A stretch of DNA of 38,389 bases, taken from assembly GCA_020725805.1 (NCBI GenBank), contig DYEF01000015.1:1-38389 (forward strand), in the 5' to 3' direction. Both the position numbers and the translations under genes were made by a program. Below the pieces are notes generated by a model that had not been told where the DNA came from, did not search any database, and saw only the letters and a list, made by a program, of their open reading frames with translations. Below are positions 765 to 36,001 of this stretch, one piece after another; positions within the stretch are counted from its first letter, which is position 1, and every line of letters starts with the position of its first letter. This DNA is from Bdellovibrio sp. (lineage in GTDB: Bacteria > Myxococcota > SpSt-1050).

Positions 765-3700
765 TTACTGCGGTATCCTCTCTATTGTAGTCACGAGTGT
801 ATTACCGCTGATTCCGCCGATTGCATACATAAACGGTGGCAGTCTTATTATCGAGAAATACCCTCTGCCTGTTCCCATCTGTGCACCGGTGTTCTCCTTT
901 TTGCCGAGTGAACCGTTCTGTACGTTGGCTGGGAATCTCTCTACTGTATTCGAGGCGTTATAACTCCCTCCGGACTCTGCCTGAATCCCGCCGAATGCAA
1001 ATAAAAATCCCGCATAGAGTTGTGCCTCTACGCCGAGAACCGGTTTTGTAAGGTCTTCGGTTGCAGTATTCCAGCCTGTGAGATATCCGCTTTCGTCTAT
1101 CTGGGAGTATTCCATCGATTTTATCCCGCTGTTGTTTCCGGCAGTATAGGAGTCATCTCCGCCCACAAGATATACAAATATCGGCTCTCCCTGAAGACGT
1201 TGTTTGATAACAGTCAGTTTTGCCTGATTGCTTATAATCCCGCCTGATTCTGCTGTAATATAGGTTACACCAAGCCCTATCCCCGTTGCTATGTTTTGGT
1301 TCATTGTTGCAATATTGGTATCACTGGATTTGTAAATGTAGTCATTCCTCTCGATTACATTTCCGCAGCTGTCATAGGCAACGGCAGTATATGTCTGCTT
1401 CTGCATAATCTCGATGGTGGCCTCTGCCGGACTTATGACTATCTTTGCAAATTTACATTCATTATTTGACGAGACGTTCAGTATTGCCTTGTTTGAAAGG
1501 ACTCCGCAGGCAGTTGCGTATATGGTTGTAGTACCGACGCTAAGTCCCGTTGCCTTCCCTGTGTTATCGATAGTGGCAATTGATGTGTCTGTTGAGATAT
1601 ATCCGAAACTATTGTATTGCAACAGGTTCCCGTTTGAATCATAAGCCTTTGTGTTGTATTGCAGACTCTGGCCGACAAGAATACCGGCAAGCACAGGTTC
1701 GATCTCGATTCTCATAACCTCACAGGCTGTACCGCCGGTTACCTCCAAAATCGCCACATTGCTGTATACTCCCTGATATTCGGCTGTAATTCCTGCCTTC
1801 CCCTTTGCGAGTGCTGTTGCAAGTCCGCTGCTGTTAATCATCGCCACTGACGGATTGTCTGACTTCCAGCTAAAGGATGAGATATTCAGTTTGTTGCCGT
1901 TTCTGTCGAATGCCTCCGCTGTATACTGCTGCTGCTGACCGACCTCTTTTGTCGCATATTCGGGTTTGACGACTATCGTAAAGACATCGCTTACCGGTTC
2001 ATCCTGAACGACAAGGGTTGCCTTGTTACTTGTAATCCCCTGATGGGTTGCCGTGACAAACGTTGTTCCGGCTTTCAGTGCCGTTGCAAGTCCCGCGCTG
2101 TCGATGGTCGCTACCTGACTATCGCTCGAGTTCCACGAGACAGTCAGATTTCTGAAGATGCAACCTGTAATATCCCTCCCTATTGCCTCGTACTGAACCT
2201 TTGCGCCCGGATTTACTACCTTATATACAGGTGCAATTTCGATAAAGGCAAGGGATACATTTATATCCTCACAATACGGAGTGATCGGAGGCTCATCACC
2301 TTCTTCATCGGGGAAGTCATTTTCGTCGGACACAAAGTTACTCGCGATACCAAAGAAAGCCCTCTTGCTGTTTGTGGATTTGTCGTAATCGAACGGTTCA
2401 AAGTCGTTGAGGTCGGATTTGAAGACTCCGCGTTCGACTGTTTTAAGATAGTTTGATGTATCTGTCCTCCCGCCTATTGCAAAGACGATATCTGCACCGT
2501 CCTTGTTCTTTACATAGATTGCCCTCAAACCTTCTCTCTTCTCCCTGAGGGTGGTATTTGCCTTTACAAAGTATCTGATAGAACCTCTCTCGAGCGGCTT
2601 TATTATTTCGGGTGGCATTCTGTTTTTATCGGGAGAATCAGAACCATTGTCCAAATAACTGTTCTGCTTTACGCCGGACTTTAAGAGATAAAACTCGGAC
2701 TTGTTAGCTTCTGTTCTGTAGATGTTGTAACTGACGGCACTCTTTATCTTGTCCCACGTAATATTTGCTGAGTTATTTTCATCTTTTATCTCAACGACGG
2801 CCTCGTATGACTGAGTGCTCTCATAGTTTGCCGTTACAGTGGTCACAACATATTTGTAAACGCCTGAGGCGAGTGTGGCACTATCGTTCTTTCTCGCAGC
2901 CGCATTCACTCTCGAAGGTGCCGGAACGAGTCTGTTCTCACCATCGTCATTGAAGACAACGGCGTTTACACCTGTTGCAATGAGCCGCTCTGAACCGGCA
3001 ATTCCGTCTGCAGACGGACTTCTGTATATATTGTAATAAAGGGCATTCGGCTGTGGTGTCCACTTGATGATATTTGTACCGCTGACGTTGGGCAGAATAA
3101 TCTCTCTTGAAGGCAGAGATTCACCATCCGCATAGACAGCAGATACCTTGTAATACCACGAACCGGGCGGCAGTGAGCCTGAGAGTGTTGTAAATGACGG
3201 CCTCAGCGGTTTCGGGGCATCGGATTTGGTATTTACCTTTGCAATCTCTATAGTGTCGAGCGGACCAGCTCCGTCAGAACCTCCGAGTGCGATGATTCTG
3301 TCTCTGATTCTCACAAGACCGAAATCCTGCCTTTTTGTCGAAAGTTTTACGAAATCTCTCTGTTTCTTCTCCGGATTAAACTGGAGTGCCTTCTGAAACT
3401 CTCCGAGTTCTCCGCTAAGAGCCACAGGTGCAATCTCAACGGAGTCAAGGGTGTCGACGAGGTTGTTGCCGCCTGCAACCAGAATATACGGGTTTTTATA
3501 CTGGTCTCTGAAAAATACAGAGGCGTGTCTGAATCTGCTCTCTTTGAGTTTTGCGCTGATGGTTGACCACTGGGTAAGTTTTCCCTCTGCACTGGACATC
3601 ATCTGAATGGCATAGTAGTAATCGTATTGTCCGTCAGGATTTACTACCTTGATCGGATAATATCCGAGTCCCAGTTGATTCGGGCCTATTACCGCATCTA

Positions 3701-4697
3701 TCTGTGTAGCTGTTATTGTCTTTATTGTCAGTTCTATTTCTGACGAGCCTGATACTGCATATAGTTTTGCCCCGTCTGCAAAGTTCTCACCCATTACGAT
3801 AAACGGGTCGGCACCGGTGTTAGAAGGCATTCTGTACGGATTTACCGATGTAATAAGTGGTGCGGGGATGGTTGTAACCGTGAATTTTTCAAAAAAACCA
3901 CTCTGTTTGTCGGGGTTTATAACCTCAACAATATAATCTCCTGCCGGCATTTTGTAAGACTCTGTAGGTGCAATCGCTGTTATATTTTTATCGGAATGAA
4001 ATGCAACACTTGGGGAAATAAAATACTTATTGCTGTCGGATTTGCTGATGAACCTGACCGCCGGTGTGGAGACGAAGTTCTCTCCGTAGATTGTGACCAT
4101 TACATCCGAGTTCTTTCCGTCGAGCGGGTCACCGCAAAATCCGGTCTTCGGCTCGATATCCTTTATAACAGGCGGGGGATTTATCAATACCCTGAATGCC
4201 TTTTTCAGGATTTTTGTGGCATTATCTCCGTTTATAACCTTTACATCATAAAGCCCGAGTGGTCTTGAGAGATTTGCCACAAGTACACCCCTGACCGAAT
4301 CGTTCGTTACTTCCTTTACCGTTGTCTCCTCTTCATAGACGGGGCTCTCCTCTTCGTTTACAAAAAAGACCTTTGCTCCGGCCAAAAATCCGGTGCCCGA
4401 GAGAATAAATTCTATATCAACGCCGCGGTAGCCGGCCTCCGGAGAGATTGATAAAACCTCAAAGGGGGTAATCTCCGTATCTCCGATGTCATCTGACCCG
4501 TCGGGCTTTGCGCCGTCCGGCAATACTCCGTCAGGGAGAACTCCGTCAGGCAGACTCCCGTCTTTGGATATATCGCTTAAGACTCCATCGCCCGAGAAGA
4601 TATCGCTTTCACCCGTTGCGGTCTCGTCACCGCAGGAGCAGGCAGATAAAATGATTGCAATAATCACTGTCGTAAAGAAATTTTTTGGTCTAAACAT
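765..4697 (-). CDS. Large lipoprotein with IPT/TIG, Kelch, FN3-like and Big_2 domains
   Basis: A predicted lipoprotein of 1310 residues: hydrophobic signal, lipobox LSAC with Cys20, then a Gly/Asp/Pro linker of repeated PDGVL units (about 45-68). Three IPT/TIG domains follow (about 79-168, 172-276, 278-368; motifs such as GTGF, GENF). Kelch-type strands with GG doublets occur at about 385-485, 715-800 and 1165-1310. They are separated by two FN3-like domains (about 490-695, each with the YYxIYRS or SYNIYRT pattern) and by four Big_2 Ig-like domains (about 815-1160, each with a D/S-x-x-IATI-type motif near the C-terminal third). The likely role is binding or adhesion at the cell surface; no catalytic motif is seen. 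GGAGG sits six bases before the ATG (complement at 4704-4710). It is the first gene of its own transcript and has no enzymatic neighbour to suggest a substrate. Confidence 0.85.
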   Translation of the reverse strand: MFRPKNFFTTVIIAIILSACSCGDETATGESDIFSGDGVLSDISKDGSLPDGVLPDGVLPDGAKPDGSDDIGDTEITPFEVLSISPEAGYRGVDIEFILSGTGFLAGAKVFFVNEEESPVYEEETTVKEVTNDSVRGVLVANLSRPLGLYDVKVINGDNATKILKKAFRVLINPPPVIKDIEPKTGFCGDPLDGKNSDVMVTIYGENFVSTPAVRFISKSDSNKYFISPSVAFHSDKNITAIAPTESYKMPAGDYIVEVINPDKQSGFFEKFTVTTIPAPLITSVNPYRMPSNTGADPFIVMGENFADGAKLYAVSGSSEIELTIKTITATQIDAVIGPNQLGLGYYPIKVVNPDGQYDYYYAIQMMSSAEGKLTQWSTISAKLKESRFRHASVFFRDQYKNPYILVAGGNNLVDTLDSVEIAPVALSGELGEFQKALQFNPEKKQRDFVKLSTKRQDFGLVRIRDRIIALGGSDGAGPLDTIEIAKVNTKSDAPKPLRPSFTTLSGSLPPGSWYYKVSAVYADGESLPSREIILPNVSGTNIIKWTPQPNALYYNIYRSPSADGIAGSERLIATGVNAVVFNDDGENRLVPAPSRVNAAARKNDSATLASGVYKYVVTTVTANYESTQSYEAVVEIKDENNSANITWDKIKSAVSYNIYRTEANKSEFYLLKSGVKQNSYLDNGSDSPDKNRMPPEIIKPLERGSIRYFVKANTTLREKREGLRAIYVKNKDGADIVFAIGGRTDTSNYLKTVERGVFKSDLNDFEPFDYDKSTNSKRAFFGIASNFVSDENDFPDEEGDEPPITPYCEDINVSLAFIEIAPVYKVVNPGAKVQYEAIGRDITGCIFRNLTVSWNSSDSQVATIDSAGLATALKAGTTFVTATHQGITSNKATLVVQDEPVSDVFTIVVKPEYATKEVGQQQQYTAEAFDRNGNKLNISSFSWKSDNPSVAMINSSGLATALAKGKAGITAEYQGVYSNVAILEVTGGTACEVMRIEIEPVLAGILVGQSLQYNTKAYDSNGNLLQYNSFGYISTDTSIATIDNTGKATGLSVGTTTIYATACGVLSNKAILNVSSNNECKFAKIVISPAEATIEIMQKQTYTAVAYDSCGNVIERNDYIYKSSDTNIATMNQNIATGIGLGVTYITAESGGIISNQAKLTVIKQRLQGEPIFVYLVGGDDSYTAGNNSGIKSMEYSQIDESGYLTGWNTATEDLTKPVLGVEAQLYAGFLFAFGGIQAESGGSYNASNTVERFPANVQNGSLGKKENTGAQMGTGRGYFSIIRLPPFMYAIGGISGNTLVTTIERIPQ
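4497..4562 (-). repeat. 15-bp tandem repeat coding for PDGVL linker units
   Basis: Imperfect 15-bp units encode the PDG-x-x linker just after the lipid-anchored Cys of the Kelch lipoprotein (SLPDG, VLPDG, VLPDG, AKPDG). Copy number probably changes by slippage. The linker is likely to hold the globular part away from the membrane. Confidence 0.6.
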
Positions 4698-6933: not shown

Positions 6934-7881
6934 CTACTCGGAGAAGATCTCTTCTATTCTCTTAATTAGCAAATATGGGTCCGTAATGCTCACAAGTTCT
7001 GACCTGAAAGATGATGCATTTTTCAGTCCCTTTGTGTACCAGATAATGTGTTTCCTGATTTTGAAAATCTCTCTTTCCGGGTGTTTTGAGTCGAGAACTG
7101 CGAGTTTTATGTGCCGCAGAATTATGTTTTTCAGATATTTGCTGTCGGGCACAAAATCCTTATCCAGAATCTCCTTTATCAGAAAAGGCCTTCCCAGAAG
7201 TCCCCGTCCGATCATAACTGCATCACAACCTGTCTCTTCTTTCATCCTTAAATAATCCTCGCTGGACCTGATATCACCGTTTCCTACTACAGGAATCTTT
7301 ACTGCTTCTTTGACCATTTTGATATGAGACCAGTCGGAGTGTCCGGAGAATGCCATCGCCCTTGTTCTGGGGTGAATGATAATATAACTGGCACCTTCGT
7401 CCTCAGCCATCTTTGCAAAATCCAGAAAATTTAGGGAATCTTTATCCCATCCCGAGCGGATCTTTACGGAGACCGGAAGTTTTGTGGAGCTTCTGACAGC
7501 TTTCACTATCAGAGTTGCAAGCCTGATATCCTTCATAAGAGCCGCGCCCGAGCCTGAACCCACAACCTTACGGGCGGGGCAGCCCATATTGATATCGAAG
7601 GCCACAGGCCTGATATTTTCCTCAACAATCGGCACAGCTCTTTCAAACATCTCAGGCTCTTTTCCGAATAACTGGACAATGAGCGGACCTTTATCGGTAT
7701 CCCTCTGAATAAGGGAGAGATTCTTCTTTGTTGCCCGCACGATTCCCATCGCACTCATCATCTCAGTAAAACAGACTTTCGCCCCGCACTCCCGAAGTAT
7801 CAGCCTGAATGCTGCGTCGCTGATTCCCGCAAGAGGTGCAGGGATAATTTCGACATTATCTATTTTACCTAAAGAAAACAC
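6934..7881 (-). CDS. dusB: tRNA-dihydrouridine synthase, DusB type
   Basis: An FMN flavoenzyme that reduces uridine to 5,6-dihydrouridine in tRNA using NADPH. The 315-residue length is normal for the family. The sequence opens with APLAGISDAAFR, has FDINMGCPARKV with the catalytic proton-donor Cys101, the substrate/FMN segments KIRSGW and HPRTR, and the FMN-phosphate motifs GNGDI and GRGLLGRPF. All key residues are present. The ATG overlaps the last 13 bases of the upstream radical SAM gene, so the two are translationally coupled. Assignment to DusB rather than another Dus paralogue is from motif similarity and is less certain than the family. Confidence 0.93.
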   Translation of the reverse strand: MFSLGKIDNVEIIPAPLAGISDAAFRLILRECGAKVCFTEMMSAMGIVRATKKNLSLIQRDTDKGPLIVQLFGKEPEMFERAVPIVEENIRPVAFDINMGCPARKVVGSGSGAALMKDIRLATLIVKAVRSSTKLPVSVKIRSGWDKDSLNFLDFAKMAEDEGASYIIIHPRTRAMAFSGHSDWSHIKMVKEAVKIPVVGNGDIRSSEDYLRMKEETGCDAVMIGRGLLGRPFLIKEILDKDFVPDSKYLKNIILRHIKLAVLDSKHPEREIFKIRKHIIWYTKGLKNASSFRSELVSITDPYLLIKRIEEIFSE

Positions 7882-8864
7882 TGCAGGTCATCTCCGTATT
7901 CGTCACCGGTGACTGCATATACAAGTGCGCGGCAACCGGCGCATTCCTCGAATCCGCAAAGTCCGCAGATATCACCACTCAGATTCTTTCTGATATTTCT
8001 GATTTCGTATTGCGAGAGGACTTTGATTATATCCCGGAAACTCATATTATTCAGATCTGCCACCTTCTTATTGTATCTTCTGCAGGGATAGACCGAGCCG
8101 TCCGGCATCAGTGCCATAGAGACCTTTCCGAGGTTACAGAGTGCCCCTTTCAGTCTGTATCCCCTTTTGCCCGAAAGAAGCCAGAACGCCTTATACTGAA
8201 TGATTTCTTCCGGCTCAAGTCCGATCTTGGCTGCTCTCAATATGTTCTCGATTGCGCTCTTCCATTCATATCTCTTCAGAAACTCGCCTTTTATGTCTCT
8301 TCCGTTGCCGAGCGGGACGAATCTCTCGAATATTGCACCCATAAGTGAATTCTGCTCAATATACCCGAGCATCCTGTCGATATCCCTGTAGTTGTAAGAC
8401 GCAAGTGTCATCATAATCAGAATTTCTTTACCTGTTGACCTGAATTTCTCAAGATTTTTGGTGACTGTTTTAAGATTCTCTTTTCCCCTTATTCTGTCAT
8501 TGACAGCAGGATCGGCCGATTCAACGGATATCTTTATATACCTGATTTTTGCAAGCGTTCTGAGAAGCGAGACCAGTTCATCGTCTATGTACGTCCCGTT
8601 GGTAATGATATTTATCTCAGAGCAGGAATCGAAGTTGTTTATATGTTGCAGCAGTTCGGTAATATGAGGATATAACAGTGGTTCTCCGCCGGTAATATTT
8701 ACAGATACTTTTTCTGTAATACCCGAACCAAATATCTTCTCTGCATACTGTTTGAGGATTTTAATATCCTTCTCGCGTTCTTTAGAGAAGATATCCTGAT
8801 AGCAGTGCAGACACCTCAGGTTGCATCTATCTGTTATATGCCACTGAAAACCAAACGTCCTCAT
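7869..8864 (-). CDS. Radical SAM protein with SPASM-type C-terminus
   Basis: A 331-residue radical SAM enzyme. The 4Fe-4S/SAM-binding motif CNLRCLHC is at Cys14, 18 and 21, and the SAM-binding GGEPL is near 62. The C-terminal part carries a SPASM-like auxiliary cluster set: CNLG, YPCRR, ICGLCGFEECAGC and QCF, with the segment GCRALVYAVTGDEYGDDLQC. This tail is seen both in peptide-modifying enzymes and in haem-pathway enzymes of the NirJ/AhbC/AhbD group, so the substrate cannot be read from it. It overlaps the Dus gene by 13 bp. A well-formed promoter lies 55-83 bp upstream and AGGAGA precedes the start. A RiPP-like precursor gene and a PqqD-like gene occur at 10525 and 18261. The enzyme might serve them, but they are in other transcripts. 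Confidence 0.88.
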   Translation of the reverse strand: MRTFGFQWHITDRCNLRCLHCYQDIFSKEREKDIKILKQYAEKIFGSGITEKVSVNITGGEPLLYPHITELLQHINNFDSCSEINIITNGTYIDDELVSLLRTLAKIRYIKISVESADPAVNDRIRGKENLKTVTKNLEKFRSTGKEILIMMTLASYNYRDIDRMLGYIEQNSLMGAIFERFVPLGNGRDIKGEFLKRYEWKSAIENILRAAKIGLEPEEIIQYKAFWLLSGKRGYRLKGALCNLGKVSMALMPDGSVYPCRRYNKKVADLNNMSFRDIIKVLSQYEIRNIRKNLSGDICGLCGFEECAGCRALVYAVTGDEYGDDLQCFL

Positions 8865-8918
8865 ATTGGATAATCTCTCCTATCTGCAGATATTGCTGCA
8901 AACAAAAGGCAGAAAAGA

Positions 8919-8947
8919 GTAATACAGAATATGGATAGCTGAGTCAA
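8919..8947 (-). promoter_or_regulatory. Sigma-70 promoter of the radical SAM-Dus operon
   Basis: Minus strand TTGACT (8942-8947), exactly 17 bp, TATTAC (8919-8924). The predicted transcript start is about 50 nt before the ATG at 8864. It lies inside an open minus-strand frame (8861-9145), which is one reason not to call that frame a gene. Confidence 0.6.
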
Positions 8948-9147
8948 CCATAATATTTCTGATTCTGGCTTTGGGTCTGAGCCGTCCGGTACAAAATATT
9001 TCCGGAATTGCGTGTCGAACAGGCATTGTTTTTGTGTTTTCTGTGCAGGCCGTATACCCTGAAAAAGCAGAACTTTTTTGATTGATTTATCGGACATAAT
9101 CATATTTATATCTTTCTGGCAGGCAAACCACCGAAAGGAGACCATCT

Positions 9148-10236
9148 ATGAAAAGACTCGTTTCCGAAAACATAGAGACATTGAGGCCATATACCCCGGG
9201 CAAACCTATTGAGGAGACCGAGCGGGAACTTGGTATAACAAATATAATCAAACTTGCGAGCAATGAAAATTCACTTGGTCCGTCGAAGAAGGCATTAAAG
9301 GCTATCAAAAATGCCCTTAAGAACCTGCACTTATACCCCGATGCGAACTGCTATTACCTGAAGGAGAAACTTGCAGAATTTCACAATATTCATCCCGACC
9401 AGCTGATACTGGGAAACGGCTCTAACGATATTATCGATCTGAGTGTCAGGACTTTCTGCTCGCCCGGCGATGAGGTGATTACATCCGAGATGAGTTTTAT
9501 AATGTTCTACATAAGTGCACAGGCCCAGAACTGCGTACAGAAGATTGTAAAGATGAAGAATTACACATTCGACCTCGATGCAATAAAGGCGGAGATAACC
9601 GACAGAACGAAGATGATATATATTGCGAATCCGAATAACCCGACAGGGACTTACAATACAAAAAAGGAGATTGACAGGTTTATTAAGAGCATACCTGAGG
9701 ATATTGTGCTCGGAATCGACGAGGCATATTATGAGTATGTAACGGCAAGGGATTACCCGTTCGATATGATCGGTTACATAAAGGAGAGGCCGAATACGAT
9801 AGTTATGAGGACTTTTTCGAAGATATACGGACTTGCAGGGGTCAGAATAGGATATGGGATTACAGATGCGAAGCTCGCAAATTATATGAACAGGGTCAGG
9901 CAGCCGTTTAATATCTCGACGCTTGCGCAGGTAGCGGCGATGGCGGCGCTCGATGATAAGGCACATGTCAGAAAGAGCCGAAAGATGAACCGCGAAGGAA
10001 TGGAGTATCTGACGAAGGAGCTTACAACACTTGGATTTACAGTAATCCCGTCACAGGCGAACTTCCTCTTAATTGATTTACATAAAGATGCGACAGAACT
10101 CTACGAAAAAGTCCTGAGACTCGGGGTAATAGTAAGGCCTATGAAGGGTTTCAATATGCCGACCGGAATCAGGGTAACAGTAGGCACAATGGAAGAGAAC
10201 AAGAGATTTATAGACGCCCTTAAACAGAGTCTGTAG
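9148..10236 (+). CDS. hisC: Histidinol-phosphate aminotransferase
   Basis: A fold-type-I PLP enzyme converting imidazole-acetol phosphate and glutamate to histidinol phosphate in histidine synthesis. At 362 residues it has family length. Motifs: SNENSLGPS near the N-terminus, NPNNPTGT, the PLP-phosphate/ring contacts around GIDEAYYEY, and the Schiff-base Lys225 in TFSKIYGLAGVRIGYG. The C-terminus carries RLGVIVRPMKGFNMP and RVTVGTMEENKRF. AAGGAG nine bases upstream fixes the start at 9148. No other his genes are nearby, so the gene is orphaned from its pathway here. HisC paralogues acting on phenylalanine or tyrosine precursors share this fold, so the substrate is probable rather than certain. 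A diverged copy of its 3' end lies 222 bp downstream. Confidence 0.88.
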   Translation: MKRLVSENIETLRPYTPGKPIEETERELGITNIIKLASNENSLGPSKKALKAIKNALKNLHLYPDANCYYLKEKLAEFHNIHPDQLILGNGSNDIIDLSVRTFCSPGDEVITSEMSFIMFYISAQAQNCVQKIVKMKNYTFDLDAIKAEITDRTKMIYIANPNNPTGTYNTKKEIDRFIKSIPEDIVLGIDEAYYEYVTARDYPFDMIGYIKERPNTIVMRTFSKIYGLAGVRIGYGITDAKLANYMNRVRQPFNISTLAQVAAMAALDDKAHVRKSRKMNREGMEYLTKELTTLGFTVIPSQANFLLIDLHKDATELYEKVLRLGVIVRPMKGFNMPTGIRVTVGTMEENKRFIDALKQSL

Positions 10237-10326: not shown

Positions 10327-10458
10327 TATAAAAATATTAGGCTTGGGGTAATGGTAAGGTTCATTAAGGGATTTAATATGGCAAACGGAAATATTATCAC
10401 ATTATACACAATGGAAGAAAACAAGAGATTCATAAACGCCATAAACCTAAGTATATAA
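10327..10458 (+). pseudogene. Diverged duplicate of the hisC 3' end
   Basis: The frame from 10327 to the TAA at 10456-10458 reads as the last 43 codons of a HisC: RLGVMVRFIKGFNM, then TMEENKRFI, and a terminal Ser-Ile. Against the intact gene at 10102-10236 there is one codon missing near the start, and I count 24 identities over the last 39 residues. The stop codon aligns exactly. The copy is clearly more AT-rich. Fainter similarity seems to continue leftward to about 10270. There is no start or upstream domain, so it cannot make an enzyme. Confidence 0.8.
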
Positions 10459-10524: not shown

Positions 10525-10665
10525 TTACTCTGACCTATCTATTGGTCCTCCTGGACAAGCGGAATCATCAGCCATCCCACAACCAGCTAAGTATATTTTC
10601 TTTGATACTTTTTTGATAATAGGTTTTTTCCATTTTTTTGTTTTGGACTTAATCTTGTTCTCCAT
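10525..10665 (-). CDS. Small peptide, candidate RiPP precursor
   Basis: An unannotated 46-codon gene. The first half is a Lys-rich leader-like region containing KKWKKPIIKK (residues 10-19). The second half, from Tyr25, is YLAGCG, then DDSACPGGP and an RSE end: two Cys (29, 37), five Gly and three Asp. Basic leaders with a Trp/Tyr-x-x-Pro-x-Ile segment followed by a small Cys/Gly core are typical of precursors recognised by PqqD-type RRE domains. This is family knowledge, not a match to a named class. The ribosome binding site AGGAG (complement at 10673-10677) is seven bases from the ATG and lies against the stop of the 2432-residue lipoprotein gene, 13 bp away, so both are probably on one mRNA. 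It is a short frame in an AT-rich stretch, but the Shine-Dalgarno and composition support it. Radical SAM and PqqD-like genes lie within 8 kb on each side. Confidence 0.6.
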   Translation of the reverse strand: MENKIKSKTKKWKKPIIKKVSKKIYLAGCGMADDSACPGGPIDRSE

Positions 10666-10678
10666 AGTTATGCTCCTT

Positions 10679-13600
10679 TTACTTAATTATATATAGTTTA
10701 TAACTTTGTCTGTCTACTGTTAATATGTCTGTAAATTTGTCATTGTTGTATTTACCAAAACCCGACACTCTAATTCCAAAACTACCTGATTCTTGAATAG
10801 TTGTTAATGGTTGGCTCGCTAAGCCAGATGGTGAACCGTTGTATATGAGAATTGCACCACTATTTGTACCAAACACAATATCCTGATATCCATCCAGATT
10901 AATATCCCCAGCAGCGGTAAAATCTATTCCAAATTGTGAAAAATTGCCATTTGTTAGAATTCCTTTATTAGATAGTTGGGATTTATCATTCGGAACACCA
11001 TGTAGCTTGTATATCGTATATGCACTATTTCTAGTGAAAATATCATTTGCACTATCACCGTTAATGTTAATGACTCTTGTTAGACTTGCATATGATTGTG
11101 TGTCACCATTAACAATAAGAACTCCTTGAGAGTTGCTGTCAAAATCTCCACTTAAGTCATTGCTACCAAATAGCACATAAATTTTTCCATAATCTGAAGA
11201 ACTTGTGCCGGTGTTGGCAAAAACAGCGTCTATATAACCATCACCATCTATATCACCAGCTGATCCAATTTTTAAGTACGTTGCTGAAGATACAGTTGTT
11301 TGAAAACTAATATCATACCCGTTTGGGTTGGTGAGACTATTATATATATTAGTATTAAATTGAGATGGTAATTGACTCCGACCTTTATAAATTAAATACC
11401 TATTGCCGAAATTAACAACAATATCGTCAATATTATAGGAGGCGATTTTATCTCCATTTATGTTTAGTCTACCACTTATTGTCCAATAAGCGAGTCTCGA
11501 CGCTGAACCTGATGGAGGTATTATTGTAGAATTTGGAACTATGCTTGGTTCATTAGGAACAGACTGTGTTGTTGTTGGCAATCCTGTTGCTGAACCAAGG
11601 TAGATATATGCTCTTCCTTCATTGCTATAAGCTCCACTTGAACCAATAAGCAAATCATCATAACCATCACCATTGAAGTCTGCAATCGAAACTGATATTC
11701 CAAAAAATGCATTTACTGAGCCACCTCTGATTTCCAGAGAAGGTCTTGACTGGTTTTCATAATACACAAAAACTCTTCCAGTGTTTGTAGACCAATTGAA
11801 CTCACTCACAACAGGATCTTTTAATCCGTCACCATCAAAGTCTCCCAACAAATATACGTTTGAACCATAATTTGAATCAGTTCCAGAGGCTATATTCTGA
11901 ATTATAAACGGCACTCTTCTGTCTTTTTCGTATCCGGAGGTTGTGGATTCGTTCGGTATGCCCGGGGTGGGGACCGAATCGATGGCTTTGACGGCAAAGC
12001 AGTAATACTTGTGAATCACAAGCCCTCTAACTATCGCCGTCTGCATCTGTCCCGGTTCAGCAATGGTTCCGATCTCTACACCATCAGAAGATGCAGTGGA
12101 CCACGCAAATCCCTGACAGTTTTTACTGACCGATGTATCCTCAGCCCATCTGATTTCATAGCCCGCAACCTTGCCGGACGAGGCATTGTTTCCGTCGTTT
12201 GCCGGTGCTGTCCAGAAGAGCTTGGCTATACCCATTCTCCTCGAGCATTCGCACTTCGTCTTGTCGGGCTCCTCGGTTGCACCTTCAAGCCCGCAGAATT
12301 CCTTGTTGGGCTGGCAAAGGGCTGTGCACTGGGCAGGCTCTTTCTCTTCTTCCTTTGAGGCATCTGTCGTCTCTCCGATACAAACAGACGGAGTAACGGA
12401 TGCCGGAGGTAATACATCTACATAGACCTGAACGTGTAACGGGTCTTCTGCCTTGTTTCCAACAAAGTCATATACCTCAACCGTGCAGTCATAAGGCGCA
12501 TGGTCTGTGTAAAAGATTACATTGCCGAATGTTGCTGTCCCGTCCGCCTGAACTATCGCAGAATTGTCACCGCCGGTATTAACACCGCCTGTGCAGACCA
12601 AGAGAGCGGTCTGTCCCGTCTCGACTCCTGTTGTCTGAATCTTTATCTCATCACCGGGCTTAAACTGCAGTCCCGCTGCTATCTTGTCTGCATCGTTATC
12701 AGATGTGTAGACTTTGTCAATAGAGAGATTATTTCCGTCAGAGACAGGGTTGGTAAACGTTACGGTTGGTTTATCACCGTCAGCAAGGATATTGAAGAGC
12801 TCTATCGTTGTAGTTATACCCGAATTGGGGTCTGTCACCGATGCCTTGAGGGTGTTGGTGGCAGGATACTGATTGAGTGTAATATTCGTAAATGCTGCCT
12901 TTCCGCCCTGCAGCTGGACGGCCGGAATAATCTCGACTCCGTTTACCCAGAGTTTTGCATCTGTGCCGCTCATAACATCGGATACGACATTGATTGTAGT
13001 CTTAAACGAGCCCGGTGCCGGGTCAAAGTCATCCGCTGCTGTAAACTTGCTGTTATTTACAAGTTCATCACCTGTACTAACCACTCCGTCCGCAGTCCAT
13101 TTCTCGATACCAACTGCCGGCACGTTGATATTTACATTTGCATAGACTTTTTGACTGTAGCCCACATTCCCCTTGTCATCTACTACCTTGATTCTGAACT
13201 CCCTGTCGCCCTTGTTGAGTGTCGGATAAGGTGTGTAGTTGAACTGGAAGTTTGTATTATCAGAGCCGATTACAGCCTGAGCATTTGTGACCGCATTGAA
13301 TTGTCCGAGTCCGACCAGTCTGTTTTCAATCGTGACTGTCGAGGCAGAATCCACACCTGTTATACTGATGGCAAATTTGTCTGTCTGTAAGCCGTTGTTA
13401 AGGTTGCCGTCCTTGTCATCTGCGGGCAGGAATATGTAAGGATTCGCCTGATTCGGTGTGTTGGGGAATACGAATGCAACAGTCGGGGCAACTGTATCCA
13501 CATCGAATTCACGCACTGCCTGAACGGCAGGATTCTTTACTATGTCATAGAGGTCCGCCTTGATATTGTTTACACCCTGAAGGAGTGTGTAAGACTGGAA

Positions 13601-16600
13601 TGTGATCTGATTACCCATTGTGTTGTCGATAGTAATCTCGGTCTTGATTGCCCCTCTCGTAAGCGAGACCTTCTGGTTCAGAAGAGGATTATTGTCGCTG
13701 ACATTCACGATTACGTCGAGTTTGAGATTGGTCCCTTCATAAATGCAGTTGTATGTGCAGTTGAGCTGTGTCAGCCAGTTCGGATTTACAAATGATGGTG
13801 GCGAATTAAACGAAACAACAGGTGGAATAGAATCCGCAAGGACAGCAATTGCAGGAGATGTATCATTCTTGTTACCGGCGGCGTCGGTTACTTCGATCGA
13901 GTAGGTGTGTGCCCCGTCCGGAATATTGTACTGAATACTCGCTGCATTCCCTGTGACCGTCCCCTCCACACCGGTTACTTTAACACCGTTGTCGAGCAGA
14001 TAGACCTTCTGGCCGTCTTCGGCTCCGGATGTCGTAACAGCTATTGTTGAGAGAATGCCCGCGGTATTTGCATCTCCGTCTTCTGCGAGTCCGAGCATAA
14101 CATTAGGCTGAACATCATTTCCGAGCTGGTTATTTGAAATTACAATAGCATTAACTGTCGGAGAAATCGAATCTATTTTGATATTAGAAGTAACCGAATA
14201 TCCTTTGTTGCCGTAGTCGTCCTGAGCCTCTGCAAAGACCTTGTGGTTACCTTCAGACATACTTATCTGTCCGAGGGTAACAGCGCCTACAGAACCACTC
14301 ACTACAACCTTCCCTTTTCCGATTACCCTGAAGAGACCTGAACCGTCCTGACAGACCTCCGTCGCCGTTCCGTAATTGTCGGAGCAGAGTTTGACCTCAC
14401 TGTCGTTTTTGAGGCCCTTTGTCTGGATGTAGAAGTATCCCTGAAATCCCGGATTCGACTGGGACTGGTCGAAGGACCTGTTCCACACATAATTTGTTGT
14501 GTCGTTGAGTTTTGTAAAGTTCTTGTCGAAGATTTCGAGGATAGGTTTGTCGGTATTGACATCATAGTTTCTGGTTGCACTGCCTGTGTTTCCGGCTGCA
14601 TCCTGAGTATTGGCTCCGACCGTGTTGATACCGTTATTCAGTGTAAAATATGTGGTATCCGACGGGAAGGTGAGGAGCTGACTATCAGAAGTCAGAGTGA
14701 GAGATGAATTTATACTGGTGGCCCCTGAAATTACAACGTTTACATTCTTATCTGCCTTACCGTTCTTTACATCTACTCTGATAGCTGTCTGCAATCCCGC
14801 ATTGAAGAGGTCGTAATCGTTCGATATACCGAGTTTGTCGGATACAGGGAAAGTGATATTTACTTCAGGTGCTTTTCTGTCAATGTATATCTTTATCGAG
14901 ACCTCCTGAGATTCGTTCCCTGCCTTATCCCTGCCTTTGATTCTGAGGGTTGTCTCTGTCCAGTCTGAGCCGGCTACATCCGTGACCTTGATTCCCTTGA
15001 ACGTAAAGGTGTTGTTTTTTACCTTTCCGGTGTATGTGTCGGTCGAAAGGGCTCTGATTACCGTGAGGGTGACTTCCGCATTGTCTTCGAGTGATTCGGA
15101 ACCATTTCCGCCCTGAACAGTTATATCGATCCCGAAGCCAACACCGGGAAATTTATCCTCATCTGCGAGATTGAATATTCTGCCATCAGTCGGTTCAACG
15201 AAACTGACGGAAGGAATACCCGTATCCGCAAATACCGTAAATTTCGATGAAATACCGTTCTTGTTTCCGTCGTCACAGGTAATCCAGATCTGGGATGAGC
15301 CTTCGTTGAAGGTTACGTTGGTGAATGTGAGATTTCCTCCGTTTGCCTGAGCATTGTAGACCGCAACATTCGTCTGTTTTACGCTCAGTGTGCAGGGAGT
15401 CGAATCGTGTGCATTTGTGGTGGCTATTACATCATACTGAACACCGTCCGTGTCGTGGTCCTTGTCGCTTGCATCGTTTAAGTACTTGCCGTCAGTCGGG
15501 TCGGTGATTGTTATTGCAAATCTCCCTGTATCAACTGTTATGTTCAGCTCTGCAAATCCGGTCTTGCCTACCAGATTTTTTGCCTCGGCTCTGAGTACCA
15601 GACTTCCTTCCGGCAGTTCTACATTTTCGAAAACCATCTCTACGAATCCGCCGCCGATGTCGGTGGCAGGCAGACTGTCGACAGGCATTCCGAAATCCCC
15701 ATCGGATTCCTTGATATAAAGTTTTCCTATTGTTCCTGCTGCCAGATTTTCGGCCTTCACCTTGATATCATACTGGAATCCGTTGGTCAGGTCACTGTCC
15801 TTATCATCAGGCTCTGTGAGTGTTGTTCCCTCGGACGGACTTTCGAATGTGAGTGCAGGGACCGTGGTGTCAACGAATACGTTGACCGAGGGCTCGTTTG
15901 ATTTGTTTCCTGCCTTGTCTGTTGCATAGACCTTAATCACATTTGGTTGTTTGTCTTTATCTGCCACGAGAGGAACCTCGGTAAATACCGCCCAGCCGTC
16001 ATCAACTTCGACGGGAGGAACTTCCACATTATTTACCTTGAGATATACCTTCTCTCCGTCTTCGAGTCCGTTTGTCTTTACTGTTACGTCGACGAGATTT
16101 GTGTCGACATTGGTATTGTCCTCGGGGTCCGTAATGACAAGTACAGGCGGTGTAATGTCAACTGTAACGACCAGCGGGTCGGGCTGTACAAAGGCCTTTA
16201 ATCCGCCCGCATTCTTTACATCAACGGTCATCTCGTATTTTCCTTCGGGAATCTCAACGGCTGAAGAGAACTCGGCTTTATTGTTGTTTACGGTAAATTC
16301 GTAATCTGCATATCCCTTTATTACAAGCTTTCCTTTCTGCCCGTTCTGAATATTCTGGGTCCTGATATCGAACTTCGTCGTCTGCAGGTTTGGTTTTGTG
16401 TTGTCTTCGTCGTTATCCCTGTTGAGGTATGAATTGTTTGCAGGCCAGAAGAACTGTGCAAAGGGAATACCTGTGTCGACTGTAATCGTAATATCTGCAC
16501 TCTCGAACTCGTTGCCGGAATCGTCAATCAGAAAGAGCCTCAGGGTATGTGTGCCTTCCGGTATTGTAACTGAGTTGAAGCTGTATGCACCTTCTGCTGT

Positions 16601-17977
16601 GAATGTATCGGAGCCCATATCCATTGCGATAGGAGGCAGGTCCGGATTAATGGCGGCATCCATCCTCAGCATTATTCTCTGATAAGTGCTGACTCCGGTT
16701 GTGGTGCCTGATACCTTTAACTGGAAGCCGGGTTTGGAGGCGTCTGTATCCATATCGGCATTAAAAAGCTTTCCATCAGGGGGTGAACTTATGAGTCCGG
16801 ACGGCGGGACCGAATCCACAACGGCATTTACCGGAAGTGCTGTCCCCTCTCTGGCTGTCTCTCCTGCCTCTTTTGCCTTTGCCTCGACCTTGATTGTATC
16901 TCCGTTTAAAAGAGCCTCTTCGTCAAATGTTACATCAGCTGTGGCGATAAGTCTTTTTGTTCCGCTCTCCTCGGCAACTGTTCCGCTCACTTTGATGGTC
17001 TTGTTCGGAGTTGTAATGGTAAAATCTACCTGAGAGCCCGCACCACAGGAGGTGTTGTTCTTCTCGTAGGCTGTCTCGGCAGCGATTGTAGCCTGCATAC
17101 CCGCAGCATCTTTGTCTTTATCAAGTATTACCTTATCTCCCTGCCCTTTTACGAGGTATTTGCTTCCGTCGAGAGGGCTGATGATTCTCACAAGGCATCT
17201 GCCGGTATTAACTGTCACAGAAATTTTATTCACCTTTGCCTTTATTCCGGAGAGATTGTAGACAACCATATCCAGTTCATTGGTCCCTTCGGCAAATGTC
17301 ACGTTCTGGAAGAGGATTACGTTTACGCCGACCTTTGCAGATGCGGCCTCAACGCCGTTGATTATGAGTTTTGCGTTCTGGTTTATCTCCACTCCTACAC
17401 AGGAGAGCTGGACACCGTACTGAAAGCCGTCAGAGAGGTCCTGATTGGCATCATCTGTTGCTGTGAGGGTATCCTTGTCCTGTGGTTTCTGGAAGGAACA
17501 GCTTACATCACTTGTGGCGGTGACAACAATTGTCTTGCTGGCCTCTGAGCCCGAGAGATTCTTCACAGATGCAGTAAGCGAGTTCGCACCGTTGACAAAT
17601 GTTACATTTGTGAAAGTGGCAACGTATCTGCCCATATTGTCCTTGGTTACGCCGGCCGAGTAGCTCTTTCCGGATGAACTTGTGGTTGTATCGGAGGCGT
17701 TGAGCAGTGTTACCTTCTGTCCGACTTCTACATTCTGAACCTTTACGACGACGTCATACTGAATAAACGGGAGATTAGCATCCCTGTCATCGGAGGCATT
17801 GAGACTGCGTCCGTCCCTCGGGTCGAGAAATTCGATGGTAACCGGAGGTGCAGATGTATCGGTCATTATATCGCTGACATCATTTACCTCTCCTCCCCCG
17901 CCTCCGCCGCAGTCACAGTTGGTAATCGTAAAGAGAACAATAATAACGGCAAGCAATGTCAAAGGTTTGAAACTCAT
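10679..17977 (-). CDS. Giant lipoprotein: sixteen Ig-like repeats, FN3, FG-GAP propeller
   Basis: A 2432-residue predicted surface lipoprotein. The signal peptide ends at ITNC (Cys21; Asn at -1 is atypical for a lipobox), then CDCGGGGGG. About sixteen Ig-like domains of 100-120 residues cover about 45-1860. Each begins PxVxFxxPxDG, has an acidic loop of the D-D-x-D-x(4-6)-G-x-Q type, and ends ...AGNxS... with a VDT linker. A Cys-rich insert (1862-1911) leads to one FN3-like domain (about 1914-2020). The C-terminus (2025-2432) holds about seven FG-GAP/VCBS blades with DFDGDG, DFNGDG and DIDGDG calcium loops, as in alpha-integrin-like propellers. Probable role: calcium-stabilised adhesion or ligand binding. 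The 3' 1.25 kb is AT-rich while the rest is not. A GGAGGG site lies just before the ATG. The small peptide gene follows 13 bp downstream. Confidence 0.85.
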   Translation of the reverse strand: MSFKPLTLLAVIIVLFTITNCDCGGGGGGEVNDVSDIMTDTSAPPVTIEFLDPRDGRSLNASDDRDANLPFIQYDVVVKVQNVEVGQKVTLLNASDTTTSSSGKSYSAGVTKDNMGRYVATFTNVTFVNGANSLTASVKNLSGSEASKTIVVTATSDVSCSFQKPQDKDTLTATDDANQDLSDGFQYGVQLSCVGVEINQNAKLIINGVEAASAKVGVNVILFQNVTFAEGTNELDMVVYNLSGIKAKVNKISVTVNTGRCLVRIISPLDGSKYLVKGQGDKVILDKDKDAAGMQATIAAETAYEKNNTSCGAGSQVDFTITTPNKTIKVSGTVAEESGTKRLIATADVTFDEEALLNGDTIKVEAKAKEAGETAREGTALPVNAVVDSVPPSGLISSPPDGKLFNADMDTDASKPGFQLKVSGTTTGVSTYQRIMLRMDAAINPDLPPIAMDMGSDTFTAEGAYSFNSVTIPEGTHTLRLFLIDDSGNEFESADITITVDTGIPFAQFFWPANNSYLNRDNDEDNTKPNLQTTKFDIRTQNIQNGQKGKLVIKGYADYEFTVNNNKAEFSSAVEIPEGKYEMTVDVKNAGGLKAFVQPDPLVVTVDITPPVLVITDPEDNTNVDTNLVDVTVKTNGLEDGEKVYLKVNNVEVPPVEVDDGWAVFTEVPLVADKDKQPNVIKVYATDKAGNKSNEPSVNVFVDTTVPALTFESPSEGTTLTEPDDKDSDLTNGFQYDIKVKAENLAAGTIGKLYIKESDGDFGMPVDSLPATDIGGGFVEMVFENVELPEGSLVLRAEAKNLVGKTGFAELNITVDTGRFAITITDPTDGKYLNDASDKDHDTDGVQYDVIATTNAHDSTPCTLSVKQTNVAVYNAQANGGNLTFTNVTFNEGSSQIWITCDDGNKNGISSKFTVFADTGIPSVSFVEPTDGRIFNLADEDKFPGVGFGIDITVQGGNGSESLEDNAEVTLTVIRALSTDTYTGKVKNNTFTFKGIKVTDVAGSDWTETTLRIKGRDKAGNESQEVSIKIYIDRKAPEVNITFPVSDKLGISNDYDLFNAGLQTAIRVDVKNGKADKNVNVVISGATSINSSLTLTSDSQLLTFPSDTTYFTLNNGINTVGANTQDAAGNTGSATRNYDVNTDKPILEIFDKNFTKLNDTTNYVWNRSFDQSQSNPGFQGYFYIQTKGLKNDSEVKLCSDNYGTATEVCQDGSGLFRVIGKGKVVVSGSVGAVTLGQISMSEGNHKVFAEAQDDYGNKGYSVTSNIKIDSISPTVNAIVISNNQLGNDVQPNVMLGLAEDGDANTAGILSTIAVTTSGAEDGQKVYLLDNGVKVTGVEGTVTGNAASIQYNIPDGAHTYSIEVTDAAGNKNDTSPAIAVLADSIPPVVSFNSPPSFVNPNWLTQLNCTYNCIYEGTNLKLDVIVNVSDNNPLLNQKVSLTRGAIKTEITIDNTMGNQITFQSYTLLQGVNNIKADLYDIVKNPAVQAVREFDVDTVAPTVAFVFPNTPNQANPYIFLPADDKDGNLNNGLQTDKFAISITGVDSASTVTIENRLVGLGQFNAVTNAQAVIGSDNTNFQFNYTPYPTLNKGDREFRIKVVDDKGNVGYSQKVYANVNINVPAVGIEKWTADGVVSTGDELVNNSKFTAADDFDPAPGSFKTTINVVSDVMSGTDAKLWVNGVEIIPAVQLQGGKAAFTNITLNQYPATNTLKASVTDPNSGITTTIELFNILADGDKPTVTFTNPVSDGNNLSIDKVYTSDNDADKIAAGLQFKPGDEIKIQTTGVETGQTALLVCTGGVNTGGDNSAIVQADGTATFGNVIFYTDHAPYDCTVEVYDFVGNKAEDPLHVQVYVDVLPPASVTPSVCIGETTDASKEEEKEPAQCTALCQPNKEFCGLEGATEEPDKTKCECSRRMGIAKLFWTAPANDGNNASSGKVAGYEIRWAEDTSVSKNCQGFAWSTASSDGVEIGTIAEPGQMQTAIVRGLVIHKYYCFAVKAIDSVPTPGIPNESTTSGYEKDRRVPFIIQNIASGTDSNYGSNVYLLGDFDGDGLKDPVVSEFNWSTNTGRVFVYYENQSRPSLEIRGGSVNAFFGISVSIADFNGDGYDDLLIGSSGAYSNEGRAYIYLGSATGLPTTTQSVPNEPSIVPNSTIIPPSGSASRLAYWTISGRLNINGDKIASYNIDDIVVNFGNRYLIYKGRSQLPSQFNTNIYNSLTNPNGYDISFQTTVSSATYLKIGSAGDIDGDGYIDAVFANTGTSSSDYGKIYVLFGSNDLSGDFDSNSQGVLIVNGDTQSYASLTRVININGDSANDIFTRNSAYTIYKLHGVPNDKSQLSNKGILTNGNFSQFGIDFTAAGDINLDGYQDIVFGTNSGAILIYNGSPSGLASQPLTTIQESGSFGIRVSGFGKYNNDKFTDILTVDRQSYKLYIIK

Positions 17978-18260: not shown

Positions 18261-18578
18261 ATGAAGAAAAGGACTCACAAGGCATTAGCAGGGAAAAGAA
18301 CGAAGGGCAAGTTAGCGGCGAAGGTGAGGCTGAGGGACGGAATTGTTTTCAGGGTTATGGATGAAGAGGCGGCTGTTGTCAGGCCTGATGACGGGACTTT
18401 GATGATTCTGAACGAGACTGCTACTTTTATCTTAAAGAGTATCGGGAAGGGTACTTCAAGAGAGAGTCTCGTCCGAAGGATAGTCAGCGAATATGATACC
18501 ACGCCGGTAGAGGCCGAGAGAGACTTAAACAGTTTTCTGAAAACTCTTGAAAAAGAGGGGCTGATTGAGATATCCTGA
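18261..18578 (+). CDS. PqqD-like peptide-binding protein (RRE fold)
   Basis: A 105-residue protein with a basic N-terminal tail (1-22) followed by a PqqD-like winged-helix domain: a first strand around GIVFRVMDEEAAVVRPDDG, then LMILNETATFILKSIGKGTS, RESLVRRIVSEYD, and a C-terminal helix ending LEKEGLIEI. This is the classic PqqD/RRE order of three strands and three helices. The N-terminal basic tail is longer than in stand-alone PqqD. In characterised pathways such proteins bind a precursor-peptide leader and hand it to a modifying enzyme. It starts a plus-strand operon with a PLP enzyme 23 bp downstream and no radical SAM gene next to it. The partner may be the peptide gene at 10525 or something outside the window. 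Confidence 0.78.
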   Translation: MKKRTHKALAGKRTKGKLAAKVRLRDGIVFRVMDEEAAVVRPDDGTLMILNETATFILKSIGKGTSRESLVRRIVSEYDTTPVEAERDLNSFLKTLEKEGLIEIS

Positions 18579-18601
18579 TAACCTGTTTAGGAGGTTTTAT
18601 T

Positions 18602-19846
18602 ATGCCGAGAAAGAAACTCAATCTAAAAAAATCAGTGAGACTGTATGAGGAGGCAAAGAGATTTATCCCCGGCGGGGTAACCGGGATAAGGAGGCCGATA
18701 AATTTCATTCCCGGAGAGTATCCGATCTTTCTGAAATCCGGAAAGGGCGGCAGAATAACGGATGTGGACGGCAATGAGTATGTAGACCTCCTCTGTGCCT
18801 ACGGACCGATTATCATCGGACACAGGGAGAAGATGATAGACGATGCGGTGATAAGGCAGATGAAGGAGGGGTTCTGTTTCAATCTTCCGCAGATTTATCA
18901 GAACGAGCTGTGTAAGATCTTCTCTGAACTGATACCCTGTGCGGAGCAGACGATTCTCGTACGAACCGGTTCGGATGCAACAACAGGTGCAATAAGGATT
19001 GCAAGGGGTTATACCGGCAAGACGAAGATTATAAGAAGCGGTTATCACGGCTGGCACGACTGGTGTGTGGAGGTAAAAGGCGGAATTCTTCCCAAGACAT
19101 ACGAAGATACGATTGATATTCACTACAACGACATCGATGCTCTCGAGAAGGTCTTTGGTCAGTATCCGGATGATATTGCCGCTGTGATCGTTACAGGGGT
19201 AGGGCACCCTCTGAACGAACCTGTTGTTGAACCGACGCCCGGATTTTTCGGCAGAATAAGGGAACTTACAAGAAAGCACGGTTCGGTTATGATTCTGGAT
19301 GAGATCAGGACCGGCTTCAGAATATCGCTTGGAGGCGCCCAGAAAAGATACGGTGTGACACCTGACCTTGCTACATTTGGTAAGGCAATGGCAAACGGCT
19401 ACTGTATCTCTGCCATCTCCGGTAAGAGAGAGGTTATGAATGTCGTTACGGAAGGAAAGGTCTTTATATCCTCGACATTCTTTCACAATTCGCTCGAGAT
19501 GGTGGCATCCATTGAGACAATAAAGTTTCTGAAGAAGAATAAAGTTATAGACAACATCTGGAAAAAGGGTGAAAAATTTCTGGAAGAACTCAGAAAACTT
19601 ACAGAAAATTACAGCGATATAATAACGCTTTCAGGGATTCCGCCTATGCCGTTCTTTACTTTTCCGAGAGATGATGCAGGAAAATACAAGGAGCGCAGGG
19701 TAAGGTTTTACACTGAGTGCATCAGGGCGGGTGTCTTTATGCAGCCCTATCACCACAGTTATATCTGTTACAGGCATACTGACAAGGACCTGAATCAGGT
19801 ACTGAACGCAGTAAGTGACGCGCTTAAAATCATCAGAGAGGTTTAA
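18602..19846 (+). CDS. Class III PLP aminotransferase, glutamate-1-semialdehyde aminomutase-like
   Basis: A 414-residue PLP enzyme of the HemL/GSA-aminomutase branch. Key sequence: FIPGGVTGIRRP near residue 21, TGSDATTGAIRIARGYTGK (about 122-140, the phosphate-binding loop and the ARGYTG signature of this branch), YHGWHDW (148-154), MILDEIRTGFR with Asp233, and Schiff-base Lys261 in TFGKAMANGY. GSA aminomutase moves an amino group within a molecule in tetrapyrrole synthesis. Here the gene has no haem neighbours and follows pqqD by 23 bp and precedes a MaoC-like gene, so it more likely transfers or moves an amino group in a specialised pathway. GGAGG lies about eight bases before the ATG. Substrate unknown. 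Confidence 0.85.
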   Translation: MPRKKLNLKKSVRLYEEAKRFIPGGVTGIRRPINFIPGEYPIFLKSGKGGRITDVDGNEYVDLLCAYGPIIIGHREKMIDDAVIRQMKEGFCFNLPQIYQNELCKIFSELIPCAEQTILVRTGSDATTGAIRIARGYTGKTKIIRSGYHGWHDWCVEVKGGILPKTYEDTIDIHYNDIDALEKVFGQYPDDIAAVIVTGVGHPLNEPVVEPTPGFFGRIRELTRKHGSVMILDEIRTGFRISLGGAQKRYGVTPDLATFGKAMANGYCISAISGKREVMNVVTEGKVFISSTFFHNSLEMVASIETIKFLKKNKVIDNIWKKGEKFLEELRKLTENYSDIITLSGIPPMPFFTFPRDDAGKYKERRVRFYTECIRAGVFMQPYHHSYICYRHTDKDLNQVLNAVSDALKIIREV

Positions 19847-19854
19847 TTTTCAGA

Positions 19855-20718
19855 ATGGCTTCGAACTTGAGACTGATAACGACTGGTCTTAGACATTTCT
19901 TCTATAAAAGGCTTAACAGGGATATGCTCGGCTTTGTAAGGGAAGAGGTCCTTCCTGAGATATTGCCCGGGGATGTAAGACTCTATGCGGCCGCAACAAA
20001 CGATGATCCGGACTCCTATTCAGGTGAGAGTATCATCCCTCCGCTCTTTGTGAGCAGACTTATTCATCCGTTTCTTACAGAGGTAATTACAAAACCCGAA
20101 CTGAGGATGAATATCCTGAAAATGGTCCACGGCGAGCTCCTGATCAGATGGCTTACCCCTGTGTATGTATCAGATAGACTAAATCTGAAAATGGAGATAA
20201 AGGAGATAATAGAGACAAACGCAGGCGAACTTATCAGAATATCTTTTATTGTCAGACGGGGAGATAAACCGGCGGCCGAGGCAGTCGCGGGACTTCTCAT
20301 CAGAAACCCGAAAGGGGAAAAGTCCAAGAAGGAGGAGGAGAAGCGGGAGCCTTTCTATGTTACCCAAATAAAGACTGCTCCCGACCAGGCACTCAGGTAT
20401 GCAAAGGCCTCACTCGATAACAATCTCATTCATACAAGTTCTTTCTTTGCAAAACTTACAGGACTCAAAAGACCGATTCTGCACGGTGTGTGCGTCTTTG
20501 CAATCACCTGCAATGAATTAATAAAAAAGTTCACAGAGAATGATAAAACAAGACTTGTATCTATGAGCGGGAGATTTGCATATCCGGTCTATCCCGGAGA
20601 GACGGTTCTGCTCAGGTGTTTTAAGGGAGAGAGCGATAATGTAATCGAGTACGAAGTAGTCAATTCCGCGGGCCGGCAGAATATCAGGTTCGGCAGGTTC
20701 GAATTCAAGAAAATCTGA
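19855..20718 (+). CDS. Double-hotdog MaoC-like hydratase/dehydratase
   Basis: A 287-residue protein with two hotdog halves. The N-terminal half keeps an IPPLFVSRLI helix-like segment and MVHGELLIRWLTPVYVSDRL, similar to the non-catalytic half of (R)-specific enoyl-CoA hydratases. The C-terminal half has YAKASLDNNLIHTSSFFAK with Asp188 and His193 at the spacing of the hydratase-2 catalytic pair, then GLKRPILHGVCVFA. The residues usually read SGDxNPLH; here a Leu replaces the Pro and Ser-Leu precedes the Asp, so activity is likely but not assured. Family substrates are enoyl or hydroxyacyl thioesters. It follows the aminotransferase by 8 bp and overlaps the SGNH gene start by one base, so it is in the same operon. 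Confidence 0.75.
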   Translation: MASNLRLITTGLRHFFYKRLNRDMLGFVREEVLPEILPGDVRLYAAATNDDPDSYSGESIIPPLFVSRLIHPFLTEVITKPELRMNILKMVHGELLIRWLTPVYVSDRLNLKMEIKEIIETNAGELIRISFIVRRGDKPAAEAVAGLLIRNPKGEKSKKEEEKREPFYVTQIKTAPDQALRYAKASLDNNLIHTSSFFAKLTGLKRPILHGVCVFAITCNELIKKFTENDKTRLVSMSGRFAYPVYPGETVLLRCFKGESDNVIEYEVVNSAGRQNIRFGRFEFKKI

Positions 20719-35971: not shown

Positions 35972-36001
35972 TTTTACCTCCACCAAAATATGTTGATTGA
36001 T

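Follow-up and report, generated by a model that had tools for sequence, protein, structure and literature searches.

The DNA analysed here (the window) is the whole of a 38,389-base contig (C8) from a 3.29-Mb assembly. On its minus strand lies a 46-codon gene at 10525..10665 (coding 10528-10665, stop 10525-10527), and its translation is MENKIKSKTKKWKKPIIKKVSKKIYLAGCGMADDSACPGGPIDRSE (46 aa). A Shine-Dalgarno sequence, AGGAG (10673..10677, minus strand), stands 7 nt from the ATG, and this ATG is located 13 nt past the stop of a gene for a giant surface lipoprotein (10679..17977, minus strand). The lipoprotein is 2,432 aa long with Ig-like (Big_13) repeats and an FG-GAP beta-propeller, and its gene is probably co-transcribed with that of the peptide. 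On the plus strand, 7.6 kb from the peptide gene, a PqqD-like RRE protein with a Lys-rich N-terminal tail is encoded (18261..18578; Pfam PqqD, 5.7e-15). A radical SAM/SPASM gene (7869..8864, minus strand; 8.6e-24) lies 1.7 kb away on the other side and, as discussed below, is not part of the system. An earlier note on this DNA had described the minus-strand frame with its AGGAG site, the residues W12, KPII (14-17), Cys29 and Cys37, and the PqqD-like and radical SAM genes; when the sequence was rechecked, all were where it had put them, and only its count of five glycines was wrong, since the peptide has four.

Several other features of the contig deserve mention. The surroundings of the peptide gene are AT-rich, and the AT-rich stretch between it and hisC contains a degenerate 102-bp copy (10339-10440, plus strand) of the 3′ end of hisC (10117-10218; 76.5% identical, E 3e-18). 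This duplicate may mark how the lipoprotein-peptide unit reached the hisC neighbourhood. Behind PqqD, in the plus-strand stretch 18261-21830, follow genes for a class III aminotransferase resembling glutamate-1-semialdehyde aminomutase, a MaoC-like protein and a GDSL lipase. A sister species (G001, contig C10) again has PqqD, the aminotransferase and a next gene of 286 aa; in the other families read, PqqD was not seen with these neighbours. Other large surface-type proteins are encoded at 765-4697 (Big_2/Kelch/TIG), 26166-29420 (ASH/HYDIN-like Ig domains) and 31130-35986 (Ig/fn3/LVIVD, 1,618 aa).

Our analysis of the peptide indicates that it has the layout of an RRE-dependent precursor. The segment WKKPII (W12-I17; 10615..10632, minus strand) conforms to a conserved Y/WxxPx[hydrophobic] pattern and is the presumed PqqD recognition sequence. 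It is followed by the presumed core AGCGMADDSACPGGPIDRSE (10528..10587, minus strand; boundary inferred), in which C29 stands 17 residues after W12. RREs are known to recognize W/YxxP, and recognition between StsC and StsA has been tested with W-V-K-P (PMC12710340), compared with W-K-K-P in the window peptide. RRE-dependent RiPPs combine a short precursor carrying such a leader motif (here W12xxP15) with an RRE-fold protein encoded nearby, and both are present. The PqqD-like protein, which is the sole close match of its kind in the genome, adopts an RRE fold in an AF2 model (pLDDT 79), and the best PDB match of this model by Foldseek is the TbiB1-leader complex 5v1v (E 5.7e-6, TM 0.91 by target).

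The tBLASTn/protein search proposed in the earlier note was performed against 146 relatives of the phylum, and nothing other than the window peptide itself was returned at E <0.1. A scan of the GTDB genome collection with the peptide gave 307 pattern matches with none confirmed, and Pfam and NCBIfam scans assigned it to no family. A leader profile that includes the window peptide matches it at E 1.6e-8, which is circular. When the profile was built without it, the peptide was not among the top matches in the window, and sequence alone is therefore no proof of homology. Homology with other precursors rests on position, motif and spacing rather than on a significant profile score.

Position was informative. 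A PqqD profile was run over 195 genomes of the phylum and about 50 loci were fetched; separate searches for PqqD and for the lipoprotein placed both on one contig, about 6-7 kb apart, also in G002, G005 and G018. PqqD normally adjoins the giant lipoprotein in related loci, and this conserved upstream partner of the peptide was missed by the earlier note. The fetched loci contain 19 giants of the window type, and a short Y/WxxPx[hydrophobic] ORF lies directly behind 17 of them by an automatic rule and behind 18 by eye, the added locus being L084, where the peptide ATG is about 70 nt downstream of the giant. At the other loci, the peptide ORF either overlaps the giant by a few bases or lies up to about 30 nt behind it, and Shine-Dalgarno-like sites precede most of these positional homologues too. 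Applied to control genes of at least 250 aa, the same rule found 9 of 342 (Fisher p 9e-21 against 17/19). Seven of these nine are themselves PqqD systems, with the peptide behind large surface proteins (L090, L102, L106, L117, L118, L119) or a radical SAM gene (L112), which leaves a background of roughly 2 in 335 unrelated genes. In L100 (G037), giant and PqqD are present and no YxxP peptide was found. Since MAG contigs are short, the absence of a gene near a contig end is weak evidence. The N termini of the giants of L044, L045, L050, L084, L088, L090, L096 and L101 were also inspected, and in several giants the mature part opens with CxC at the lipobox (e.g. ACDCGG, GCSCDD, GCGCDG).

Beyond the Y/WxxP motif, the positional homologues show little sequence conservation, as is expected for precursors. 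The leader Trp/Pro positions, whose conservation the earlier note had made a test of its proposal, are kept as Y/WxxP. It had also named conserved cysteine spacing as a test; the spacing between the cysteines is not conserved, and the distance from the leader to the first Cys is conserved instead. In 20 of 21 Cys-type precursors, the first Cys comes 17-20 residues after the leader aromatic residue (17 in the window peptide, most often 18), and only L117, with 24, departs from this. Because the set was partly selected visually for the presence of a Cys core, the count illustrates the spacing rule and is no test of it. By record titles, this set spans several phyla (Myxococcota/Deltaproteobacteria, Acidobacteria, Nitrospirae, Lentisphaerae and others). 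The precursor of the sister species, MKIIRKRNTKRRYIRPTIKFRSSKRQMIVAVSCQKIWGESEYCNIQPGG, has a spacing of 20 and lies behind a different, PQQ-type beta-propeller protein. In large-genome relatives (family f9; L117, L118 and L119), the order is S26, PqqD, PQQ-type beta-propeller protein, peptide and kinase, with peptides of the pattern ...YxxPAxLWEQPFVALA...C....C.P; no radical SAM gene was seen nearby. The stricter pattern [YW]xxPx[IVLMS]x11-14C occurs in one of the 278 window ORFs of 30-75 aa, namely the 10525..10665 peptide, in none of the 449 ORFs counted over 58 kb of unrelated loci, and 64 times in 2.1 Mb of fetched loci, where more than half of the occurrences adjoin PqqD/radical SAM cassettes (motif list read against locus maps). 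Taken together, these data make it very probable that the 46-residue peptide is a genuine precursor, destined for enzymatic modification.

The candidate modifying enzymes are encoded by a radical SAM/kinase operon on another contig of the same genome, linked to the precursor in relatives. In related loci, the peptide gene is followed downstream by genes for an HprK-like kinase, a radical SAM enzyme and an S24/S26 peptidase, in that order. All six genes (PqqD, giant, YxxP peptide, kinase, radical SAM, S26) are contiguous in L088, and the arrangement is nearly complete in L046, L089, L050 and L098. The window lacks the trio of kinase, radical SAM and S26 genes, and the same genome has it as one operon on contig C41, probably the modifying operon, which the earlier note did not report. 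In locus L132 of that contig, the HprK-like kinase lies at 9307-10098, a PqqE-like radical SAM/SPASM enzyme at 8260-9306 and an S24/S26 (signal-peptidase-I-like) peptidase at 7779-8267 (TIGR02228 above cut-off). The same operon, with its genes arranged identically, is present in the sister species G001, and no PqqD or precursor candidate was found beside it in the operon regions of either genome. The separation of PqqD and precursor from the operon is identical in G001 and G002. With an operon that lacks PqqD and precursor, and a PqqD and precursor that lack the operon, the two halves complement each other. The C41 radical SAM enzyme possesses C32/C36/C39 and the conserved cysteines C252, C270, C312, C318, C321 and C340; this matches sactipeptide and ranthipeptide systems, which are recognized by a SPASM enzyme with CxxxCxxC and auxiliary-cluster cysteines.

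The type of core also follows the type of enzyme. Precursors with a Cys core pair with radical SAM subfamily A in 9 of 9 genomes (G000, G002, G018, G033, G040, G007, G079, G022, G051), while Cys-free precursors ending in a YGPFR..PPR-like sequence pair with subfamily B in 7 of 7 (G005, G034, G020, G030, G059, G099, G160). The subfamily B enzyme occupies the same slot, between kinase and peptidase. The association gives p 9e-5 by genome and p 0.008 by family (7 versus 3), figures that come from few families and from a pattern spotted before testing. This covariation is the strongest indication that the radical SAM enzyme has the peptide as its substrate, and it leaves some room for shared descent. 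In L103, which is of the YGPFR type, the core carries one Cys and no subfamily B radical SAM gene was found in the stretch read.

Based on these observations, we predict, with a probability of roughly three in four, that the window peptide is matured into a radical-SAM-modified RiPP by way of PqqD, the C41 enzyme, the kinase and the S26 peptidase, and that the product is active with the lipoprotein at the cell surface. The W12xxP15 leader would bind the PqqD-like RRE protein (18261-18578), which would dock the C41 radical SAM/SPASM enzyme and hand over the precursor. In the predicted reaction, this enzyme cross-links the core through Cys29, and perhaps through Cys37 too; a thioether is the likeliest bond, and Asp33/34 and Asp43 are possible partners. 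Phosphorylation of the precursor is the probable task of the HprK-like kinase encoded in this operon. Removal of the leader, around export and either at the inner membrane or across it, would fall to the S24/S26 (signal-peptidase-I-like) protease. The coupling of the gene to that of a giant Ig/beta-propeller lipoprotein makes it probable that the mature peptide works at the cell surface, where it would join or serve this protein. The gene arrangement with its conservation, the motif with its spacing and the split operon were read from sequence, and the RRE fold from a model; from these we infer that the leader is bound, the core cross-linked, the precursor phosphorylated and cleaved, and the product partnered with the lipoprotein. 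The RiPP precursor idea of the earlier note, with its charged leader, PqqD/RRE partner and Cys/Gly core, holds.

An unlikely alternative is that the gene encodes an unmodified, small Lys-rich protein that serves the giant as a regulator, folding factor or anchor, with the Y/WxxP segment binding a PqqD that is solely a chaperone. The tight linkage is indeed to the lipoprotein, the precursors of L047, L050 and L088 have no Cys or only one, and L047 and L050 show no radical SAM gene nearby. However, genes for radical SAM enzyme, kinase and peptidase recur in operons, and the radical SAM subfamily tracks the core type, which argues against this reading.

In the model of the earlier note, the modification is made by the neighbouring radical SAM/SPASM enzyme (7869-8864); its SPASM domain and its proximity speak for it. 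We consider this very improbable, since the protein scores 66 bits against the maturase profile and the C41 enzyme 566, and its gene overlaps a dihydrouridine synthase gene. At least five further radical SAM proteins of this genome, encoded on C83, C88, C79, C18 and C42, also outscore it. The gene was not found in sister species G001, and its orthologues in G005 and G014 are in unrelated contexts, without PqqD or YxxP peptides.

Equally little credence can be given to a lasso precursor, in which a KKWxKPxI leader would precede a core starting at A27/G28 with an Asp at ring position 6-8, as in the paeninodin type. The leader of paeninodin is KKWxKPxI-like, and an RRE fold and a kinase are likewise shared with that system; lasso clusters also use PqqD-like B1 proteins and HprK-like kinases. 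The fold of the window PqqD is closest to TbiB1, and the NCBIfam lasso PqqD models are its top matches, although below cut-off. YxxP is also a lasso leader motif (PMC12710340). Nevertheless, the asparagine-synthetase-like cyclase and B2 protease of a lasso cluster were not seen beside the peptide in the window, in the C41 operon (L132) or in the related loci read, and PF13471 matches were partial, covering 43-47 residues inside unrelated ORFs of about 490 aa. The core lacks a Thr at position -2, and most related loci have a radical SAM gene instead. That 10525..10665 is a chance, untranslated ORF, as an AT-rich stretch and a peptide without a sequence homologue might suggest, is scarcely credible given the AGGAG site, the coupling to the upstream stop, the motif unique in the window and the same position in 18 of 19 relatives.

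Among described systems, SynChlorMet (SCM; NCBIfam TIGR04248-TIGR04251) shares PqqD-like (ScmD), HprK-like (ScmC, kinase-like) and radical SAM/SPASM (ScmE/ScmF) parts with the radical-SAM-modified system predicted here. ScmC is the best NCBIfam match of the C41 kinase (2.2e-8), ScmD that of a homologous PqqD (4e-13), and ScmE is the second match of the C41 radical SAM enzyme (1.5e-32), with all three far below the curated cut-offs (33.8 versus 125, 31.4 versus 100 and 112.9 versus 400 bits, respectively). In contrast to SynChlorMet, the loci studied here repeatedly include an S24/S26 peptidase and a giant beta-propeller lipoprotein, and the peptides match no NCBIfam model. Streptosactin-type sactipeptides (StsA/StsB/StsC) have a W-x-x-P leader, a discrete RRE, a radical SAM/SPASM enzyme and a Cys core (PMC12710340), as does our system. 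The StsB model is matched here at 4e-19, with 69 bits against a cut-off of 625. We know of no kinase, S26 peptidase or giant lipoprotein in the sts system. In quinohemoprotein amine dehydrogenase (QhpC/QhpD), the small peptide QhpC is cross-linked by a radical SAM enzyme and forms a subunit with a beta-propeller protein (PMC8172795). By analogy only, QhpC may serve as a precedent for a cross-linked small chain that works with a beta-propeller protein; unlike in QhpC/QhpD, no haem subunit or QhpC homology was seen here, and a PqqD-type RRE is present.

Compared with known RRE-dependent radical SAM RiPPs, the distinctive feature would be the coupling to giant surface propeller proteins. No publication was found on such a peptide encoded behind a giant surface protein in a genome that also has peptide-modifying enzymes, and as most subscription journals lay outside the search, "undescribed" is provisional. 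With this in mind, our results suggest that Myxococcota have, across the phylum, a family of radical SAM RiPPs that seems not to have been described. Its precursors have been hidden by being too short and divergent for homology searches, and they can be found by their position right behind giant beta-propeller surface proteins, the Y/WxxP motif and the 17-20 residues to the first Cys. The two core types and two radical SAM subfamilies provide testable candidates for new peptide cross-links, and RiPP chemistry is possibly linked to giant surface lipoproteins of unknown function. More tentatively, and with doubts outweighing our confidence, the modified peptide might be a built-in, replaceable "prosthetic peptide" of these lipoproteins rather than a secreted antibiotic. 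Myxococcota would then have a general system for maturing surface proteins, where each of the unrelated propellers (FG-GAP, PQQ type) would have its own radical-SAM-modified peptide and two alternative radical SAM chemistries (Cys, YGPFR) would be used.

A cassette of S26 peptidase, kinase, PqqD and radical SAM genes is also widespread in Acidobacteriota (L147-L175 and others), and records titled Omnitrophota, Nitrospirae, Lentisphaerae and Anaerolineaceae contain it as well (L176, L177, L179, L194, L201). Near many of the Acidobacteriaceae copies, no precursor with the YxxP-Cys motif was found. Cassettes of this kind often carry YxxP-Cys peptides, for example ...KPYTKPSVASEPIYETLALACGKLPGQGGFCNAAPRRS.
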